Below are positions 15,856 through 23,489 of a stretch of DNA of 64,000 bases, piece after piece. Numbering within the stretch: position 1 is the first letter of the stretch; the number at the start of each line of letters is the position of its first letter. The notes under the pieces were generated by a model. It searched no databases and was not told where the DNA came from. It saw only the letters and a program-made list of their open reading frames with translations. Origin of the DNA: an uncultured Flavobacteriaceae bacterium. Its GTDB lineage: Bacteria > Bacteroidota > Bacteroidia > Flavobacteriales > Flavobacteriaceae. Made by a program: the position numbers and the translations under genes. Where the stretch lies: positions 124,001 through 188,000 of the forward strand of contig CANMXP010000008.1 of the NCBI GenBank assembly GCA_947501845.1, written 5' to 3'.

Positions 15856-15886
15856 TTGTGTATTTATATTTTCATTTCTATATTTG
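15856..15886 (+). promoter_or_regulatory. trp operon promoter
   Basis: TTG at 15856-15858, a 20-bp spacer and TATATTTG at 15879-15886 match the Bacteroidota sigma consensus exactly. Transcription would start near 15892, about 13 nt before the leader peptide ATG. This is among the best promoter matches in the window. Confidence 0.8.
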
Positions 15887-15904
15887 AACCAAGAAAAATC
15901 AAAA

Positions 15905-15961
15905 ATGAACACAATTTTAAATAATACTTGGTGGTGGAGCTTCAGAAACTTACGTTCGTGA
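15905..15961 (+). CDS. trpL: trp operon leader peptide
   Basis: An 18-residue frame, MNTILNNTWWWSFRNLRS, with three consecutive Trp codons (15929-15937) and a TGA stop at 15959-15961. It begins just downstream of a consensus promoter and precedes a terminator hairpin and trpE. Three adjacent TGG codons in so short a frame are unlikely by chance. The arrangement is that of a classical attenuator, in which ribosomes stall at the Trp codons when charged tRNA-Trp is scarce. The mechanism is established for enteric trp operons and inferred here. Confidence 0.87.
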   Translation: MNTILNNTWWWSFRNLRS

Positions 15962-15994
15962 AGAAAACCTAGTATATTTAAAACTTAAAATATC

Positions 15995-16028
15995 AAAAAA
16001 GGCTTGTCATTCACGACAGGCCTTTTTT
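15995..16028 (+). terminator. trp attenuator terminator
   Basis: The stem is 15995-16008 with 16015-16028 (14 bp including one G-U pair), with a 6-nt loop, and the T run forms the right arm end. It lies between the leader peptide and trpE. The 7-nt segment around the leader stop codon (TCGTGAA, 15957-15963) is complementary to the loop and start of the right arm (TTCACGA, 16010-16016), a possible competing pairing. Confidence 0.85.
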
Positions 16029-17522: not shown

Positions 17523-17565
17523 GAAGTAACTTGAGGCATGAAGATAGAAATAAGCTTGTGTATCC

Positions 17566-17637
17566 AGACAAAATGAATAAAGAAAATAAAAAATTTAACT
17601 AAAAACAGATTCCTGCCTTCGCAGGAATGACAAAAAA
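17566..17637 (+). repeat. REP-like hairpin upstream of trpG
   Basis: A perfect 8-bp stem ATTCCTGC/GCAGGAAT (17609-17616 with 17621-17628) with loop CTTC is followed by GACAAAAAA and then the trpG ATG at 17638. The 17566-17608 part (ACAAAATGAATAAAG...) matches half of the second hairpin of the same composite element found before trpD and trpA. Confidence 0.85.
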
Positions 17638-18204
17638 ATGACGAAAGTATTAGTTATAGATAATTACGACAGTTTCACATACAATCTAGTTCACTATCTA
17701 GAAGATTTAAATTGTGACGTAACCGTTGTTAGGAATGATAAATTGGTTTTAGATGATGTAGAGCCTTTCGATAAAATTGTTTTATCTCCAGGACCTGGTA
17801 TTCCAGATGAAGCTGGCTTATTAAAACCAATAATTGAAAGATTTGCAGCTACTAAAAGTATTTTGGGCGTTTGTTTAGGACAACAAGCAATTGGTGAAGT
17901 ATTTGGTGGATCTCTCATTAATTTAGACGAAGTATACCATGGTGTTTCAACAAATGTCACCATTAGTGTAGATGACGAACCTATTTTTGAAGGTTTAAAT
18001 AAAAATATAGAAGTTGGTAGGTATCATTCTTGGGTAGTTAATCCAGATTTACCCGATAGTTTAGAAGCTACTTCGTTTGATGAAAACGGACAAGTCATGT
18101 CGTTACGACATAAAGTCTACGATGTAAAAGGCGTTCAATACCACCCGGAATCGGTATTAACACCAAACGGAAAGAAAATATTAGAAAACTGGTTGAATAG
18201 TTAG
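17638..18204 (+). CDS. trpG: Anthranilate synthase component II (glutamine amidotransferase)
   Basis: 188 residues, a full class-I glutamine amidotransferase. NYDSFTYNLVHYL is at the N-terminus, the nucleophile Cys in GVCLGQQAIGEVFGG near residue 81, and the catalytic His-Glu in YHPES near 168. It hydrolyses glutamine and passes ammonia to TrpE. The operon setting makes TrpG the primary role, though such subunits can also serve PabB. A REP-like hairpin ends 9 nt before its start codon. Confidence 0.93.
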   Translation: MTKVLVIDNYDSFTYNLVHYLEDLNCDVTVVRNDKLVLDDVEPFDKIVLSPGPGIPDEAGLLKPIIERFAATKSILGVCLGQQAIGEVFGGSLINLDEVYHGVSTNVTISVDDEPIFEGLNKNIEVGRYHSWVVNPDLPDSLEATSFDENGQVMSLRHKVYDVKGVQYHPESVLTPNGKKILENWLNS

Positions 18205-18527
18205 TAGTATTTAGTTGCAGTTAGCAGTGCTTACTCAGCTGAAAAAAGCTATAATTAAAAATTGAATTGAACTTGAATTTCAGAAATAGTCGGAATCATC
18301 AAAATTCAGAAATAATGAAAGAAGGAATGGAGATGCGAAGCATAGCTAGCTTCAAGTACATAATTACGAAAGTGAATGATGCATTAGCAATTTCCTAACT
18401 TTGATATGATTTTTGGTTCGTTTTGTATCAAGACAAAATGAACTAAAGCAAAAATAGAAAGTAAAACCTAAAAGAATCCTGTTTTAGCTCATCTTGAATA
18501 AAGGACGAAAGACAGGAATGACAAAAA
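18205..18527 (+). repeat. Repeat-rich spacer between trpG and trpD
   Basis: No gene is supported here. It contains degenerate heptamer-like repeats just after trpG (18204-18235), a hairpin GTTCGTTTTGT/ACAAAATGAAC (18416-18426 with 18433-18443) and an expanded version of the trpG-type hairpin (AATCCTGT near 18475 with ACAGGAAT at 18512-18519). The latter ends 8 nt before the trpD ATG. The second half is the same composite element found before trpG and trpA. Confidence 0.72.
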
Positions 18528-19523
18528 ATGAAAGACTTATTAAACAGGCTTATAAATCACGAAAGCATTACAAGCGAAGAAGCAAAACAAGTATTGGTAA
18601 ACATCTCTAATGGTATGTATAACCAAAGTCAAATTGCATCTTTTCTTACTGTTTTTATGATGCGAAGCATTACCTTGGAAGAATTACGCGGTTTTAGAGA
18701 CGCCCTTTTAGAATTATGCATAGCCATCGACTTAAAAGACTTTAATGCTATCGATTTATGCGGAACTGGTGGTGATGGTAAAGACACCTTTAATATCTCA
18801 ACCCTGTCATCATTTGTATCTGCTGGGGCTGGTATTAAAGTGGCCAAACATGGTAACTATGGCGTATCTTCTGCTTGTGGATCTTCAAATGTTATGGAAT
18901 ATTTAGGTATTAAATTTTCTAATGATGAAGATTTCCTAAAAAAATCTATCGACAAGGCAGGAATCTGTGTTCTACACGCACCATTATTCCACCCTGCTAT
19001 GAAAAATGTAGCACCTATTCGTCGCGAACTGGGTGTAAAAACATTCTTTAATATGTTAGGGCCTATGGTAAACCCATCATTTCCTAAAAATCAAATGGTA
19101 GGCGTTTTTAATCTAGAATTGCTACGTTTATACGGCTACCTATATCAAAATACAGATAAAAATTACAGTATTGTTCATGCATTAGATGGTTATGATGAAA
19201 TTTCTTTAACTGGAAACACAAAAGTCATTTCTAATAATTCCGAAACCATGTTTTCACCAGAAGATTTAGGTATTTCAACAATCACTCAAGAATCAATTTT
19301 TGGAGGAAATACTGTAGAAGATGCGGCTAAAATATTTGTAAACGTTATTGAAGGAAAAGGCACCGAACCTCAAAACCATGTGGTTTGTGCCAATGCAGGT
19401 TTAGCCATAGCAACAACCAAGCAAATTAGTCACAAAGAAGGATTTGAGCAAGCAAAAGAATCATTGCTTTCAGGAAAAGCAAAAGCGAGTTTAGACACAT
19501 TAATTGAATTAAGTAAAAAATAG
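18528..19523 (+). CDS. trpD: Anthranilate phosphoribosyltransferase
   Basis: 331 residues, typical length. The PRPP-binding CGTGGDGKDTFNIST is near residues 78-92, KHGNYGVSSACGSSNVMEYLG near 107-127 and APLFHPAMKNVAPIRRELGVKT near 150-171. It attaches anthranilate to phosphoribosyl pyrophosphate, the second committed step. It is a separate protein here, not fused to TrpG as in enteric bacteria. The start codon directly follows a CAGGAATGACAAAAA repeat tail. Confidence 0.95.
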   Translation: MKDLLNRLINHESITSEEAKQVLVNISNGMYNQSQIASFLTVFMMRSITLEELRGFRDALLELCIAIDLKDFNAIDLCGTGGDGKDTFNISTLSSFVSAGAGIKVAKHGNYGVSSACGSSNVMEYLGIKFSNDEDFLKKSIDKAGICVLHAPLFHPAMKNVAPIRRELGVKTFFNMLGPMVNPSFPKNQMVGVFNLELLRLYGYLYQNTDKNYSIVHALDGYDEISLTGNTKVISNNSETMFSPEDLGISTITQESIFGGNTVEDAAKIFVNVIEGKGTEPQNHVVCANAGLAIATTKQISHKEGFEQAKESLLSGKAKASLDTLIELSKK

Positions 19524-19558
19524 TTTGCAGTAGGCTATAACAGCAAACCGTTTTACTC

Positions 19559-19628
19559 ACTGAACACTGAACACTGAATACTGAATACTGAATACTGAAT
19601 ACTGAATACTGAATACTAAATACTAAAA
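19559..19628 (+). repeat. Heptanucleotide tandem array upstream of trpC
   Basis: Ten head-to-tail 7-bp units: ACTGAAC x2, ACTGAAT x6, ACTAAAT and ACTAAAA. The array occupies most of the trpD-trpC spacer, and its last base is the A of the trpC ATG at 19628. The period is unambiguous and there are no spacers, so this is a simple-sequence array and not CRISPR. Confidence 0.95.
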
Positions 19629-20410
19629 TGACCATACTAGATAAAATAGTCAAAGATAAACGTAAGGAAGTCGACCTTCGGAAAAGTTTAATTCCAGTAA
19701 CGCAATTAGAGCAATCTGTTTTATTTGAAAGAGAAATTGTTTCTCTTTCAAATAACTTAAAACATAGTGAATCGGGGATTATTGCAGAACATAAAAGACG
19801 TTCGCCTTCAAAAGCAGTAATAAATCAAAGCTTGAACGTTCAAGATGTTGCAAAAGGTTATGAAGATGCTGGTGTTTGTGGGATGTCGGTGTTAACCGAC
19901 GGAAAGTATTTTGGAGGCTCACTAGACGATTTATTAACTGCCAGGGCTAGCTGCAATTTGCCGTTACTTCGTAAAGAATTTATCATAGATGAGTATCAAA
20001 TACTAGAAGCTAAGGCACATGGAGCAGATGTTATTTTATTGATCGCAGCCATTTTAACCAGAGGGGAAATTAAGCAGTTTTCGGAATTTGCAAAACGTTT
20101 GAATTTGGATGTTTTATTAGAGGTTCATAATGAAGAAGAACTCCATAAGTCTGTCATGCCATCATTAGACATGTTAGGTGTGAACAATAGAAATTTAAAA
20201 ACCTTTGATGTTAGCTTAGAGACAAGCAAAACATTAAGTAAGCTTATTCCTGATGATTTTGTAAAAGTTTCAGAAAGCGGCATTAGCAATATTGAAGCTA
20301 TTAAAGAATTGAAACCTTATGGTTATCAAGGATTTTTAATTGGTGAAAACTTTATGAAAACAGAGAATGCTGGGGCAAGCGCCAAACAATTTATAAAGAG
20401 CCTCATCTAA
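19628..20410 (+). CDS. trpC: Indole-3-glycerol phosphate synthase
   Basis: 260 residues, one TIM barrel. IIAEHKRRSPSKAVI near residues 50-64 contains the catalytic Glu-Lys pair. LRKEFIIDEYQILEA near 116, DVLLEVHNEEEL near 160 and GVNNRNLKTF near 182 are the other family motifs, with VSESGI near 216. It closes carboxyphenylamino-deoxyribulose phosphate to indoleglycerol phosphate. It is separate from TrpF. The ATG follows immediately on a heptamer array, with no Shine-Dalgarno-like sequence visible. Confidence 0.95.
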   Translation: MTILDKIVKDKRKEVDLRKSLIPVTQLEQSVLFEREIVSLSNNLKHSESGIIAEHKRRSPSKAVINQSLNVQDVAKGYEDAGVCGMSVLTDGKYFGGSLDDLLTARASCNLPLLRKEFIIDEYQILEAKAHGADVILLIAAILTRGEIKQFSEFAKRLNLDVLLEVHNEEELHKSVMPSLDMLGVNNRNLKTFDVSLETSKTLSKLIPDDFVKVSESGISNIEAIKELKPYGYQGFLIGENFMKTENAGASAKQFIKSLI

Positions 20411-20506
20411 CTCCTCCAAGGAAGGAGAATATGTACTCGAATGAAAAAAGAAATAAAAAACATATCAAAAGCTAACAATACGCCTTCATCTTCAGAGAGG
20501 ATTGGA
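20411..20506 (+). repeat. Repeat-derived spacer between trpC and trpF
   Basis: Right after the trpC stop is a short imperfect inverted repeat, CTCCTCCAAGGAAGGAG (20411-20427). Just before trpF comes TTCAGAGAGGATTGGA (20491-20506), which runs into the start codon. Both resemble the GGAGAGG-type palindromic repeats common in Bacteroidota spacers. The GAGAGG could act as the ribosome-binding site. Confidence 0.45.
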
Positions 20507-21175
20507 ATGAGGCTAAAAGTTTGCGGAATGAAATATGAAGAGAATATCACTCAAGTTGCAAATTTACAACCTGACTATCTAGGATTTATATTTTACAAAA
20601 AATCTGCAAGACATTTTAACAGCAATATCCCCAAATTACCAGAATCCATAAAAAAAGCAGGGGTTTTTGTAGATGAAAGTTTAGAGCATGTTGCCAAACT
20701 AATAAACAAGCATCAACTTCAAGCAGTTCAACTACATGGAAAAGAATCGCCCGAATACTGCGAAGCTTTACGCCATACGGAACTCGTTTCTGTATCCCAC
20801 AAAAAGAATCTGAAACCAATTCAGATTGAAATAATAAAAGTTTTCTCCATTAAAAACGAGTTCAATTTTGAGGTTCTAAAACCTTACGAAGACGTCTGTG
20901 ATTACTTTTTATTCGATACCAAAGGAAAATTACCTGGAGGTAACGGCTACACGTTTGATTGGAGCGTGTTGAATAATTATCCATCTACCAAACCTTTTTT
21001 TCTTAGCGGTGGTATTGGCTTAGATCAAGTTGAAGCTATTAAAAAGTTCAAACAAAGTGAAGCTTCAAAATATTGTTATGCCCTAGATATAAACAGTAAA
21101 TTCGAAATAGAACCTGGATTAAAAAATATTGAAAAATTAAAAACATTTAAACAAGACTTGTCATTCCGCACTTGA
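20507..21175 (+). CDS. trpF: Phosphoribosylanthranilate isomerase
   Basis: 222 residues from the ATG at 20507; the frame is open back to an ATG at 20441, but MRLKVCGMKY matches the usual TrpF N-terminus with the catalytic Cys in KVCGM. YLGFIFYKKSARH, VQLHGKESPEYC near residue 76-87, the catalytic Asp in FLFDTKGKLPGGNG near 129 and SGGIG near 164 follow. Residues ~89-105 (RHTELVSVSHKKNLKPI) look like a translated intergenic repeat inserted in frame, making the protein slightly long. The last residues (LSFRT) and the stop come from another repeat hairpin. The enzyme is expected to be functional since all core motifs are intact. Confidence 0.92.
   Translation: MRLKVCGMKYEENITQVANLQPDYLGFIFYKKSARHFNSNIPKLPESIKKAGVFVDESLEHVAKLINKHQLQAVQLHGKESPEYCEALRHTELVSVSHKKNLKPIQIEIIKVFSIKNEFNFEVLKPYEDVCDYFLFDTKGKLPGGNGYTFDWSVLNNYPSTKPFFLSGGIGLDQVEAIKKFKQSEASKYCYALDINSKFEIEPGLKNIEKLKTFKQDLSFRT
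20772..20830 (+). repeat. REP-like element inserted in frame within trpF
   Basis: The segment contains AATCTGAA/TTCAGATT (20807-20814 with 20820-20827) and a left arm CATACGGAACTCGTTTCTG complementary, with mismatches, to the right part. It resembles the GAACTTGTTTC-type inverted repeats common in Bacteroidota genomes. It keeps the reading frame open and adds about 15-17 residues to the protein. Confidence 0.6.
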
Positions 21176-21183
21176 TGCGGAAT
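21161..21183 (+). repeat. REP-like hairpin overlapping the trpF stop codon
   Basis: A perfect 8-bp stem ATTCCGCA/TGCGGAAT (21163-21170 with 21176-21183) with loop CTTGA. The trpF stop TGA (21173-21175) lies in the loop, so the last codons of trpF are within the repeat. Confidence 0.82.
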
Positions 21184-21210
21184 CCATAATAAATTAAATA
21201 AAAAATCAAA

Positions 21211-21243
21211 CAGATTCCTGACAAAACAGGAATGACAGAAATT
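21211..21243 (+). repeat. REP-like hairpin upstream of trpB
   Basis: A 7-bp stem ATTCCTG/CAGGAAT (21214-21220 with 21227-21233) with loop ACAAAA, then GACAGAAATT and the trpB ATG at 21244. It is a degenerate copy of the element before trpG and trpA. The in-frame ATG at 21232 is part of the repeat, not the likely start. Confidence 0.78.
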
Positions 21244-22425
21244 ATGAATTACAACGTAAACGAAAAAGGCTATTATGGAGAATTTGGAGGCGCATATATT
21301 CCAGAGATGCTATATCCCAACGTAGAAGAGTTACGCCAAAACTATCTTAAAGTGATGGCCGAACCTGAGTTTCAAAAAGAGTTCGATCAACTTTTAAAAG
21401 ATTATGTAGGACGTCCTTCTCCACTTTACTTTGCAAAACGCCTCTCAGAAAAATATAACGCCAAAATTTATTTAAAACGTGAAGACCTTAACCATACGGG
21501 AGCCCATAAAATAAATAATACCATTGGTCAAATACTCATGGCAAAACGCTTAGGAAAGCACAGAATTATTGCTGAAACTGGTGCAGGACAACATGGTGTT
21601 GCCACTGCTACCGTTTGTGCATTGATGGGCTTGGAGTGTATTGTTTATATGGGAGAAATCGATATAAAAAGACAAGCACCAAACGTTGCCAGAATGAAAA
21701 TGTTAGGAGCTACTGTAGTACCTGCTCTTTCTGGAAGCCGTACCTTAAAAGATGCCACCAACGAAGCTATTCGAGATTGGATCAATAATCCCGTAGACAC
21801 CCATTATATTATAGGTTCAGCTATCGGCCCACACCCTTATCCAGATATGGTGACCAAGTTTCAATCTGTTATTTCAGAAGAAATTAAATGGCAATTAAAC
21901 GAGCATGAAGGAAGAGAAAATCCTGATTATGTGGTTGCTTGTATAGGTGGTGGAAGTAACGCCGCTGGAACCTATTATCATTTTTTACATGAACCTGACG
22001 TTAATATTATTGCCGTTGAAGCTGCTGGCTTAGGAGTCGATTCTGGTGAAAGTGCAGCAACATCTGTTTTAGGGAAAGAAGGCATTATACATGGTTGCAA
22101 AACCTTATTAATGCAAACAAACGATGGCCAAATAACAGAACCTTATTCTATTTCGGCAGGTTTGGACTACCCTGGTGTTGGTCCTATGCACGCCCATTTG
22201 TGTAAAACAGGACGTGCAGAATTTATGGCTATTACAGATGATGAAGCAATGAAAGCTGGGTTAAAATTATGCGAACTAGAAGGCATAATCCCTGCTATAG
22301 AAAGCTCCCATGCACTTGCTATTTTCGAACAAAAAAGTTTTAAACCCAACGATGTCGTGGTAGTGAGTTTGTCTGGTCGAGGTGATAAAGATTTGGAGAA
22401 TTATATTGAGTATTTTAAGATATAA
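21244..22425 (+). CDS. trpB: Tryptophan synthase beta subunit
   Basis: 393 residues from the ATG at 21244; the in-frame ATG at 21232 is inside a repeat hairpin. [14 protein letters not shown] is the canonical N-terminus. The PLP lysine is in [13 protein letters not shown] near residue 87, [14 protein letters not shown] near 110, the phosphate-binding GGGSNAAG near 233 and SGRGDKD near the end. It condenses indole with serine, and forms the alpha2-beta2 complex with TrpA encoded ~290 nt downstream. Confidence 0.96.
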
Positions 22426-22718
22426 CAACTCAAAATGAAGCCAGAACTTGAAATTAAAAACAGGACACTTAGATATTCAAATCCCAAATCAATTCGCAGA
22501 ATTGACCTGCCAAGGCGAAGAATAGATGAAGAAAAGCTCCGAAAAATAGGAGAACGCAGTTCGACGCGGAGTTTTCAAATCGGTTTTCAGTTTTTTAACT
22601 GAAAAATCCCTTGGATTGGATGTCTTTTTTTGGTTCGTTTTTTGGACAAGCAAAAAATGAATAAAGAGAAAAACATAACTAAAAAATGGATTCCTGCCTT
22701 CGCAGGAATGACAAAAAA
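22426..22718 (+). repeat. Repeat-rich spacer between trpB and trpA
   Basis: No gene is supported here. It holds a TTTTCAGTT/AACTGAAAA hairpin near 22583-22606, a GTTCGTTTTTT/CAAAAAATGAAT-type hairpin (22633-22662) and the composite element's final hairpin ATTCCTGC/GCAGGAAT (22690-22697 with 22702-22709). That last hairpin is identical to the one before trpG and, like it, ends 9 nt before the start codon. Confidence 0.78.
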
Positions 22719-23489
22719 ATGAACAGAATAAATCAAAAACTACAAGAAGATAAGAAGTTACTTTCTATATACTTCACAGCAGGTTACCCTAACATCAACG
22801 ATACGGCTACAATCATTCAAGATTTAGAAAAAAACGGTGTCGATATGATTGAAATAGGCTTGCCATTTAGTGATCCTCTAGCCGATGGACCAACCATCCA
22901 AGCAAGTTCTACACAAGCTTTAAAAAATGGCATGACCACCGAGGTTCTTTTTGAACAATTAAAGGACATTAGGAAATCAGTTAGTATTCCTTTAATCATT
23001 ATGGGGTATTTTAATCCAATGTTTCAATATGGTGTAGACGCTTTTTGTAAAAAATGTCAAGAAATTGGTATAGATGGCTTAATAATTCCAGATTTACCCG
23101 TAGACGTATATCATGAAAAATACCAAACCATCTTTGAGAAGCATGGTTTAATTAATGTGTTTTTAATCACACCACAGACTAGTGATGAACGCATTCATTA
23201 TATAGACTCTATTTCAAATGGTTTTATTTATATGGTTAGTAGTGCTAGTACAACTGGTGCCAAAGTTGGTTTTGGAGAAGAACAAACCCAATATTTTGAG
23301 CGCATAGGTAATATGAACCTTAAGAACCCTCAAATTGTCGGATTTGGTATTAGCAATAATCAAACTTTTACGCAAGCCACACAATACGCTAAAGGCGCTA
23401 TTATTGGCAGTGCTTTTGTAAAACATGTTACAAACGAAGGTATTAGTAATATTAACCACTTTATTAGTTCAATATTAAACCATGAATAA
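22719..23489 (+). CDS. trpA: Tryptophan synthase alpha subunit
   Basis: 256 residues from the ATG at 22719. The frame can be read back to 22686, but those 11 codons (MDSCLRRNDKK) are a translated repeat hairpin. LLSIYFTAGYP, the catalytic Glu in MIEIGLPFSDPLADGPTIQ near residues 45-63, IMGYFNPMFQYG near 95 and the catalytic-loop Asp in DGLIIPDLPVDVY near 122 are present. It cleaves indoleglycerol phosphate to indole, channelled to TrpB. Its last 8 nt overlap the DUF805 gene, suggesting coupled translation. Confidence 0.96.
   Translation: MNRINQKLQEDKKLLSIYFTAGYPNINDTATIIQDLEKNGVDMIEIGLPFSDPLADGPTIQASSTQALKNGMTTEVLFEQLKDIRKSVSIPLIIMGYFNPMFQYGVDAFCKKCQEIGIDGLIIPDLPVDVYHEKYQTIFEKHGLINVFLITPQTSDERIHYIDSISNGFIYMVSSASTTGAKVGFGEEQTQYFERIGNMNLKNPQIVGFGISNNQTFTQATQYAKGAIIGSAFVKHVTNEGISNINHFISSILNHE

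Follow-up and report, generated by a model that had tools for sequence, protein, structure and literature searches.

Why should closely similar hairpins stand immediately before four genes of a single tryptophan operon? The question is raised by a stretch of 64,000 nucleotides from an uncultured Flavobacteriaceae bacterium (here called the window; positions 124,001 to 188,000, forward strand, of contig CANMXP010000008.1 in assembly GCA_947501845.1), in which trpG, trpD, trpB and trpA each begin just downstream of such an element. The initial annotation took these elements for copies of one repeat resembling a repetitive extragenic palindrome (REP) and suggested that it supplies a ribosome-binding context or protects or regulates the message. 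Our analysis leads to another origin. With a probability of roughly 0.7, the trp hairpins are the ends of REPs that are the debris of small mobile elements carrying a gene for a GIY-YIG nuclease, elements whose mobility we infer from the comparison of related genomes.

The hairpins before all four genes were recovered, together with a fifth repeat copy at the trpF-trpB junction:
17608 to 17632, forward strand: single REP, right half, with its GACA end toward trpG (exact match; 9 nt from stem to the ATG at 17638).
18475 to 18523, forward strand: long-loop REP variant before trpD (ATG 18528), read directly.
21159 to 21183, reverse strand: left half of an inverted REP pair, found by script, with the trpF stop codon (21173 to 21175) inside it.
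21214 to 21237, forward strand: the trpB REP, right half of the inverted pair, with its GACA end toward trpB (ATG 21244); found by pattern search, folding and the pair script.
22689 to 22713, forward strand: single REP, right half, with its GACA end toward trpA (ATG 22719; a further ATG upstream, at 22686, is in the same frame).

The match is exact at trpG and trpA, where the 20-mer ATTCCTGCCTTCGCAGGAAT (17609-17628 and 22690-22709) is in each case followed by GACAAAAAA and then by the ATG; with up to 3 mismatches allowed, the window holds 2 matches to this 20-mer against 0.01 expected from shuffled sequence. It is looser at trpB, whose hairpin ATTCCTGACAAAACAGGAAT occupies 21214-21233 and lies 10 nt from the ATG, and takes a long-loop form at trpD, where the arms AATCCTGT (18475-18482) and ACAGGAAT (18512-18519) enclose a 29-nt loop and end 8 nt short of the ATG. 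The trpB element had been described as a modified stand-alone copy; the hairpin is present, but as the right half of an inverted pair that fills the trpF-trpB junction and whose left half, TGTCATTCCGCACTTGATGCGGAAT, supplies the trpF stop codon. Relative to shuffled sequences the hairpins at trpG, trpB and trpA fold with z scores of -3.45, -3.89 and -3.79, and the inverted pair (21150-21240) folds at -21.1 kcal/mol with a z score of -5.23. The value for trpD (z 0.45) refers to a folded stretch without the left arm of the hairpin. The long-loop form at trpD is also found in the same-genus genome G010, and G005 has the short form there. Sequence similar to the extra loop at 18483-18511 (GTTTATCTTGAGCGAAGACGAAAGG type) occurs in the long-loop REPs at hisB of G006, trpB of G007 and L291, and looks as if one repeat had been inserted into another. 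A short reading frame within the repeat (ATGACAAAAAAATGA) overlaps the starts of trpG and trpA; it was set aside after consideration, since it is not preserved at trpD or in G001 and G002.

With exceptions in one stem and in some loops and tails, detailed below, the trp hairpins fit the published CGTC-REP superfamily, as members of its TGTC variant. Repeats of this superfamily are described as having a CGTC tag, often replaced by TGTC (CCTC is also a variant), stems of 8-9 bp that open with A-T pairs, loops of 4-5 nt and tails that are mainly CCA; they frequently form inverted pairs and are known from five phyla, Bacteroidetes among them (Di Nocera et al. 2013, PMC3733652). Read on the opposite strand, the trpA element is TGTC-ATTCCTGC-GAAG-GCAGGAAT-CCA. 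The TGTC tag is found at trpG, at trpD, in both halves at trpB and at trpA, and there is no GTAG at the tag end of the trp hairpins. The stems were scored as agreeing with the superfamily pattern (8-9 bp, A-T pairs in the first two positions), with 8 bp at trpG, trpA and the left trpF-trpB half, 7 bp at trpB and one mismatch at trpD. Loops of 4-5 nt are present at trpG, trpA and the left trpF-trpB half, and the loop is 6 nt at trpB and 29 nt at trpD. The unpaired tail is CCA at trpA and the left trpF-trpB half, and CTG at trpG and trpB.

The exact 20-mer is rare, with 8 copies in the 5.37-Mb genome. The pattern ATTCCN{4,34}GGAATGACA has 35 genome copies and its reversed control none; with the gap limited to 30, there are 26 to 69 copies in each of 12 same-genus genomes and 0 or 1 of the control. 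From G000-G003 we assembled a positional sample of 147 distinct copies (33/33, 55/56, 33/37 and 26/48 of those counted), only 3 of them intragenic. After removal of these 3 and of 9 without a called gene on one side, 41 of the 135 remaining copies have an inverted tagged partner within 150 nt, compared with 9 of 135 for a control motif. A strict search for inverted pairs returned just 15 sequence-distinct pairs.

What is new here is a GIY-YIG gene that accompanies such REPs; the repeat superfamily itself is known. Among the open-access papers listed by our literature searches, no title or abstract opening contained a link between a GIY-YIG gene and REPs. The gene is found at the trp locus of relatives, a GIY-YIG frame, whole or decayed, lying between inverted palindromes in the trpB-trpA spacer of 7 of the 12 same-genus genomes. 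In the genome of the window itself, small GIY-YIG genes at L175, L176, L177, L179 and L182 (broken) stand between inverted GTCA-tagged repeats of several families, and at L177 the repeat on the right is exactly of the trp type and that on the left is of the long-loop form. Two loci of this genome are exceptions, L174 being unflanked and L178 having an untagged hairpin on its 3' side only. L174 (G000:C10 113860-114060) adjoins a tRNA-Leu-like sequence, the first part of which recurs upstream of the gene, as if the gene had been inserted with partial duplication of that sequence. Tandem GIY-YIG matches occur at G008:C12 62658-63950 (about 500 nt apart, with an internal stop in two of the three copies) and at G009:C9 151752-152611 (310-340 nt apart).

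The association extends well beyond the genus. Named genomes searched with an alignment built from seven proteins of this kind gave 588 matching stretches, of which 553 were confirmed and the best 80, from many phyla, were kept. When 200 nt on each side were compared for inverted repeats (77 loci scored, three dropped for short flanks), a score of at least 28 was reached by 56 of the 77 GIY-YIG loci and by 2 of 114 neighbouring genes, and a score of at least 50 by 25 loci and no neighbouring gene. Sorted by record title, the 56 comprise 32 of 39 loci from Flavobacteriia (one titled Bacteroidia only) and 24 of 38 from elsewhere. The own-genus set is a sample, made up of those 30 listed matches that had loci; a score of 28 is reached by 18 of them and a score of 24 by 23, and none of 85 controls reaches 28. 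Tags of GTCA type are present on both sides at 63 of the 77 loci, and at 21 of the 30 own-genus loci as against 12 of the 85 control genes. GTCA opens most of the paired stretches, pointing outward, and in the 53 loci that score at least 28 and have a 5' tag, GTC is preceded by T 45 times and by C 6 times; the Undibacterium locus L249 and the Methylomonas locus L257 have CGTCATTCCCGCGAAAGCGGGAATCCA. The repeats often lie within 30 nt of the start and stop of the nuclease gene. By eye, each nuclease subtype tends to be accompanied by one repeat family, and the nearest protein neighbour has the same repeat class in 37 of 72 cases overall (maximum of shuffles 30) and in 33 of 72 when neighbours are below 85% identity (maximum 31).

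The same junctions, hisC-hisB and trpB-trpA, contain the nuclease gene in some genomes and lack it in others, which we take as a sign of mobility. Read by eye in the 12 genomes, hisC-hisB is empty in three (G002, G003 and G007, where the two genes overlap), holds a GIY-YIG gene in three (G000, G001 and G004) and in six holds a repeat pair with no open reading frame. In four of these six pairs, the final codons and stop of the nuclease gene align with the 30 nt that precede the right REP, agreeing at 24-25 of 30 positions, a level reached by none of 2000 shuffles. At a third junction a tagged repeat is present in 10 of the 12 genomes, with two different families represented, and copies of one nuclease subtype stand in differing surroundings.

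The encoded protein consists solely of a GIY-YIG domain (57.4 bits in Pfam) in which Y11, Y22, G24, R32 and E69 are invariant across 47 aligned sequences. The closest solved fold to its AlphaFold model (pLDDT 90) is that of the UPF0213 protein BH0048 (E 4.9e-4), followed by Slx1-Slx4 (E 0.011 and above, probability up to 1.00) and, weakly, UvrC. The sequence profile also reaches UPF0213 entries, and matches to NCBIfam group I intron endonucleases all fall below cut-off. The protein thus resembles the UPF0213, Slx1 and UvrC N-terminal GIY-YIG nucleases in its UPF0213 profile match, its near fold and its invariant residues. It differs from Slx1 in that Slx1 acts with Slx4 on branched DNA, whereas the REP-linked proteins are stand-alone domains of about 100 residues. 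Since the titles of the Slx1-Slx4 structure entries describe nucleases acting on branched DNA, palindromic ends are, by analogy, plausible substrates of the GIY-YIG protein.

We propose that a unit consisting of a REP, a GIY-YIG gene and a second REP would form an autonomous mobile element, the nuclease of which, with its Slx1/UvrC-type fold, would recognise the palindromic ends in hairpin or cruciform form. REP pairs would remain when the nuclease gene is lost, and single REPs when such pairs decay. Because insertions at other sites disrupt genes, the units would build up where gene junctions are tight, and the GACA end would come to lie shortly upstream of a start or downstream of a stop. 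The four hairpins of the trp operon, each ahead of a different gene, would be the outcome of this process. If the hairpins influence translation or mRNA stability, that influence would be secondary, translational effects being a possible by-product. In its broadest form the proposal is that CGTC/TGTC REPs derive, as non-autonomous debris, from a new class of minimal element that spans phyla, in which a ~100-residue Slx1-like GIY-YIG nuclease lies between two palindromic ends recognised as branched DNA, and which forms a second REP-propagating system independent of RAYT; to this broader proposal we give slightly better than an even chance.

In the published description a dedicated transposase for CGTC REPs is apparently absent, and autonomous elements may have vanished early (PMC3733652); the GIY-YIG nuclease is now a testable candidate mobiliser for these repeats. 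A nuclease link could explain how CGTC REPs arise and spread, and it would explain why hairpins crowd the gene junctions of operons such as trp and his. With the CGTC REPs described there, the repeats here share the TGTC variant, the 8-bp stem with its A-T start, in part the 4-nt loop, the head-head inverted pairs, the intergenic dispersal and the occurrence in Bacteroidetes, and they differ in that the tag end also lies close to starts and in that a GIY-YIG gene is found inside pairs (PMC3733652). Like bacterial miniature inverted-repeat transposable elements (MITEs) as described in the same source, they are short non-autonomous units often inserted beside genes (PMC3733652); unlike MITEs, they have palindromic ends and a proposed GIY-YIG partner, and target duplication was not found. 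With REPINs and the RAYT-REP (GTAG) system they share inverted REP pairs as short units beside a gene for a nuclease-like protein, whereas the tag and the nuclease fold are different, and the RAYT genes of this genus carry other repeats.

The idea of a ribosome-binding or regulatory role, in which the hairpin with its A-rich GACAAAAAA tail gives a start context or protects the processed mRNA and is selected at trp starts, has to be judged from where the repeats lie. The host group is not known to rely on Shine-Dalgarno sequences. Genes were called with a simple codon-usage script, whose start positions are approximations (at trpB it chose an ATG that falls within the repeat), and the null placed each whole repeat block at random within its spacer. 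Of 46 start-facing copies, 29 have the GACA end overlapping the start or no more than 20 nt from it, compared with 11.1 expected (22 of 39 against 9.5 without the trp loci), and the fraction of A before starts is 0.59 in 25 repeat-bearing genes and 0.48 in 52 window genes. These figures favour a role at starts, as do the stable hairpins at trpG, trpB and trpA. The bias is, however, not specific to starts. The GACA end also hugs stops, being within 10 nt in 31 of 89 copies against 13.2 expected, whereas the body end is not close to genes (no more than 20 nt from a start in 1 of 56 copies and from a stop in 4 of 79); both kinds of gene edge are thus occupied by the tag end. In copies with a partner the stop excess is gone (10 of 26 against 9.4 expected) and the start excess stays (8 of 15 within 10 nt against 5.1). 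Within the genus, where the operon was located in 12 genomes (in G004 from trpD onward only) and hairpins were counted by eye, presence is patchy: a hairpin of the trp type, sometimes decayed, precedes trpG in 8 of 11, trpD in 3 of 11, trpB in 8 of 12 and trpA in 5 of 12. Two further genomes have another hairpin (GTCA-type or decayed) at trpB, and the seven genomes without the trp type at trpA have the right end of a GIY-YIG element there. Some hairpin, with differing stems, stands before trpA in 12 of 12 genomes, a point in favour of selection. Occupancy is comparable at unrelated genes, with an element before hisB in 9 of 12 genomes and the tagged repeat at the third junction noted above. 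A family search matched 148 of 149 genomes, and of the 30 best loci, which were read, 28 are from other genera; there a tagged repeat lies near the trpG start in 2 of 27 scorable junctions and none was detected in the other 25. As trpE and trpG lie within 10 nt of each other or overlap in 14 of these 27 junctions, the trp hairpins appear to be lineage-specific insertions and not a needed trp signal, and from these comparisons the repeat seems to be no part of ancestral trp control. The start bias anticipated by the initial annotation is thus borne out, but a signal particular to starts or to trp is not, the repeat coming and going within the genus and being mostly undetected at trpG in the nearest other genera. 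A trp-specific regulator was rejected as the main account because the repeat precedes unrelated genes and is undetected at trpG in most other-genus junctions, and we consider a selected translation or mRNA-stability element in general to be unlikely.

A different possibility is that the GIY-YIG gene is a passenger, or a homing endonuclease preferring existing REP pairs, which themselves spread by other means. The sub-threshold matches to group I intron endonucleases are in keeping with this idea, most of the ATTCC-type copies observed have no adjoining GIY-YIG gene, and L174 stands beside its tRNA-Leu-like sequence without repeats. Yet repeats flank the gene in many phyla, often at the short distances from start and stop given above, and closely related nuclease subtypes tend to have one repeat class in common; we regard a passenger role as conceivable but doubtful. 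Mobilisation by RAYT (Y1 tyrosine) transposases, in the manner of GTAG REPs, appears very improbable. All 12 same-genus genomes contain RAYT genes, and one in the genome of the window is above cut-off. Of 30 RAYT loci fetched, 26 were run through the script and 21 were scorable, and 15 of these 21 have their own inverted repeats of unrelated sequence, from which it is clear that the flank method recovers a known system. By the same pattern, none of the 21 RAYT loci has an intact ATTCC-type REP at a distance of 250 nt or less, but 12 of the 30 own-genus GIY-YIG loci do. A looser motif search gives matches at 6 of the 21; at L358 and L364 these may be half of a decayed long-loop repeat, and the others look like chance. 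RAYT was disfavoured as mobiliser on these counts. Among RAYT-like genes, a 495-residue frame at L040:379-1866 (reverse strand; G000:C20) fuses a RAYT-like Y1 domain to a full oxygen-dependent coproporphyrinogen oxidase, HemF; its RAYT match (NF047646, 51 bits) is below cut-off. Frames of 495-535 residues with a RAYT match also occur in G002, G003, G004, G005 and G008, where the RAYT part only was compared.

Several observations nonetheless weigh against deriving the trp hairpins from mobile GIY-YIG elements. Nuclease genes are bounded by inverted ends like those of the copies without a reading frame, except at 17 of the 77 loci, where the score is below 24, and at some high-scoring loci (L184, L190, L220, L236, L253 and L263) the repeats of the pair face inward or are not simply arranged. 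Below 75% protein identity the sharing of repeat class (26 of 72) is within the range of shuffles (mean 19.9, maximum 31). The match to the nuclease gene end fails in two of the six hisC-hisB pairs, G011 and G006, the latter having one extra A and a one-base shift, and no obvious target-site duplication was seen by eye at hisC-hisB. Element boundaries show a modest contrast, gapped identity among eight copies of one subtype being 0.72 and 0.69 inside as against 0.60 and 0.62 outside. Earlier boundary values of 0.90-0.95 come from columns anchored on repeat motifs and are partly circular; unanchored inner blocks of the anchored alignment give 0.38-0.70, compared with 0.28-0.42 outside. To these are added the possible decayed half-repeats near two RAYT genes and the presence of some hairpin before trpA in every same-genus genome, which could mean selection. 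Finally, the start excess survives the random-block null, and tolerance of insertions at junctions alone may not explain it.

Other features of the operon are distinct from the REPs:
15885 to 16008, forward strand: Bacteroid-trp leader RNA (RF01692; cmscan 59.1 bits, gathering score 49).
17556 to 17606, forward strand: remnant of a long trp spacer module before the trpG REP (nhmmer match 17556-17635, REP included).
18221 to 18470, forward strand: long trp spacer module between trpG and trpD, ending GTTCGTTTTGT..ACAAAATGAAC (nhmmer match 18221-18526, REP included).
22427 to 22688, forward strand: copy of the long trp spacer module in the trpB-trpA spacer, diverged in sequence (nhmmer match 22427-22717, REP included).

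The Bacteroid-trp leader is a known regulator upstream of trpE and is separate from the repeat; in the Rfam scan it alone reached its gathering score, four other matches in the operon falling below theirs. The second hairpin described upstream of the repeat, GTTCGTTTT..AAAATGAAC, is indeed present, but it belongs to the separate long spacer module and is not a companion of the REP. This module, which is about 200 nt long and apparently contains several hairpins, recurs genus-wide in the trpE-trpG, trpG-trpD and trpB-trpA spacers, and was traced by nhmmer with a model built from the spacers of the genus. Among the sequences searched its full-length matches are confined to trp loci; outside trp there are partial matches to its 3' end, with the REP included (best at L011, E 2.9e-8), and weak ones. 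That the module is itself a dispersed repeat was rejected, as 18290-18445 has one own-genome match at E <= 0.01. A motif resembling the module is found near trpG in a few other genera. The trpD-trpC spacer (19560-19627) is filled by tandem repeats of the GAATACTGAATACT type, and related tandem arrays are seen by eye in the same spacer of most same-genus genomes.

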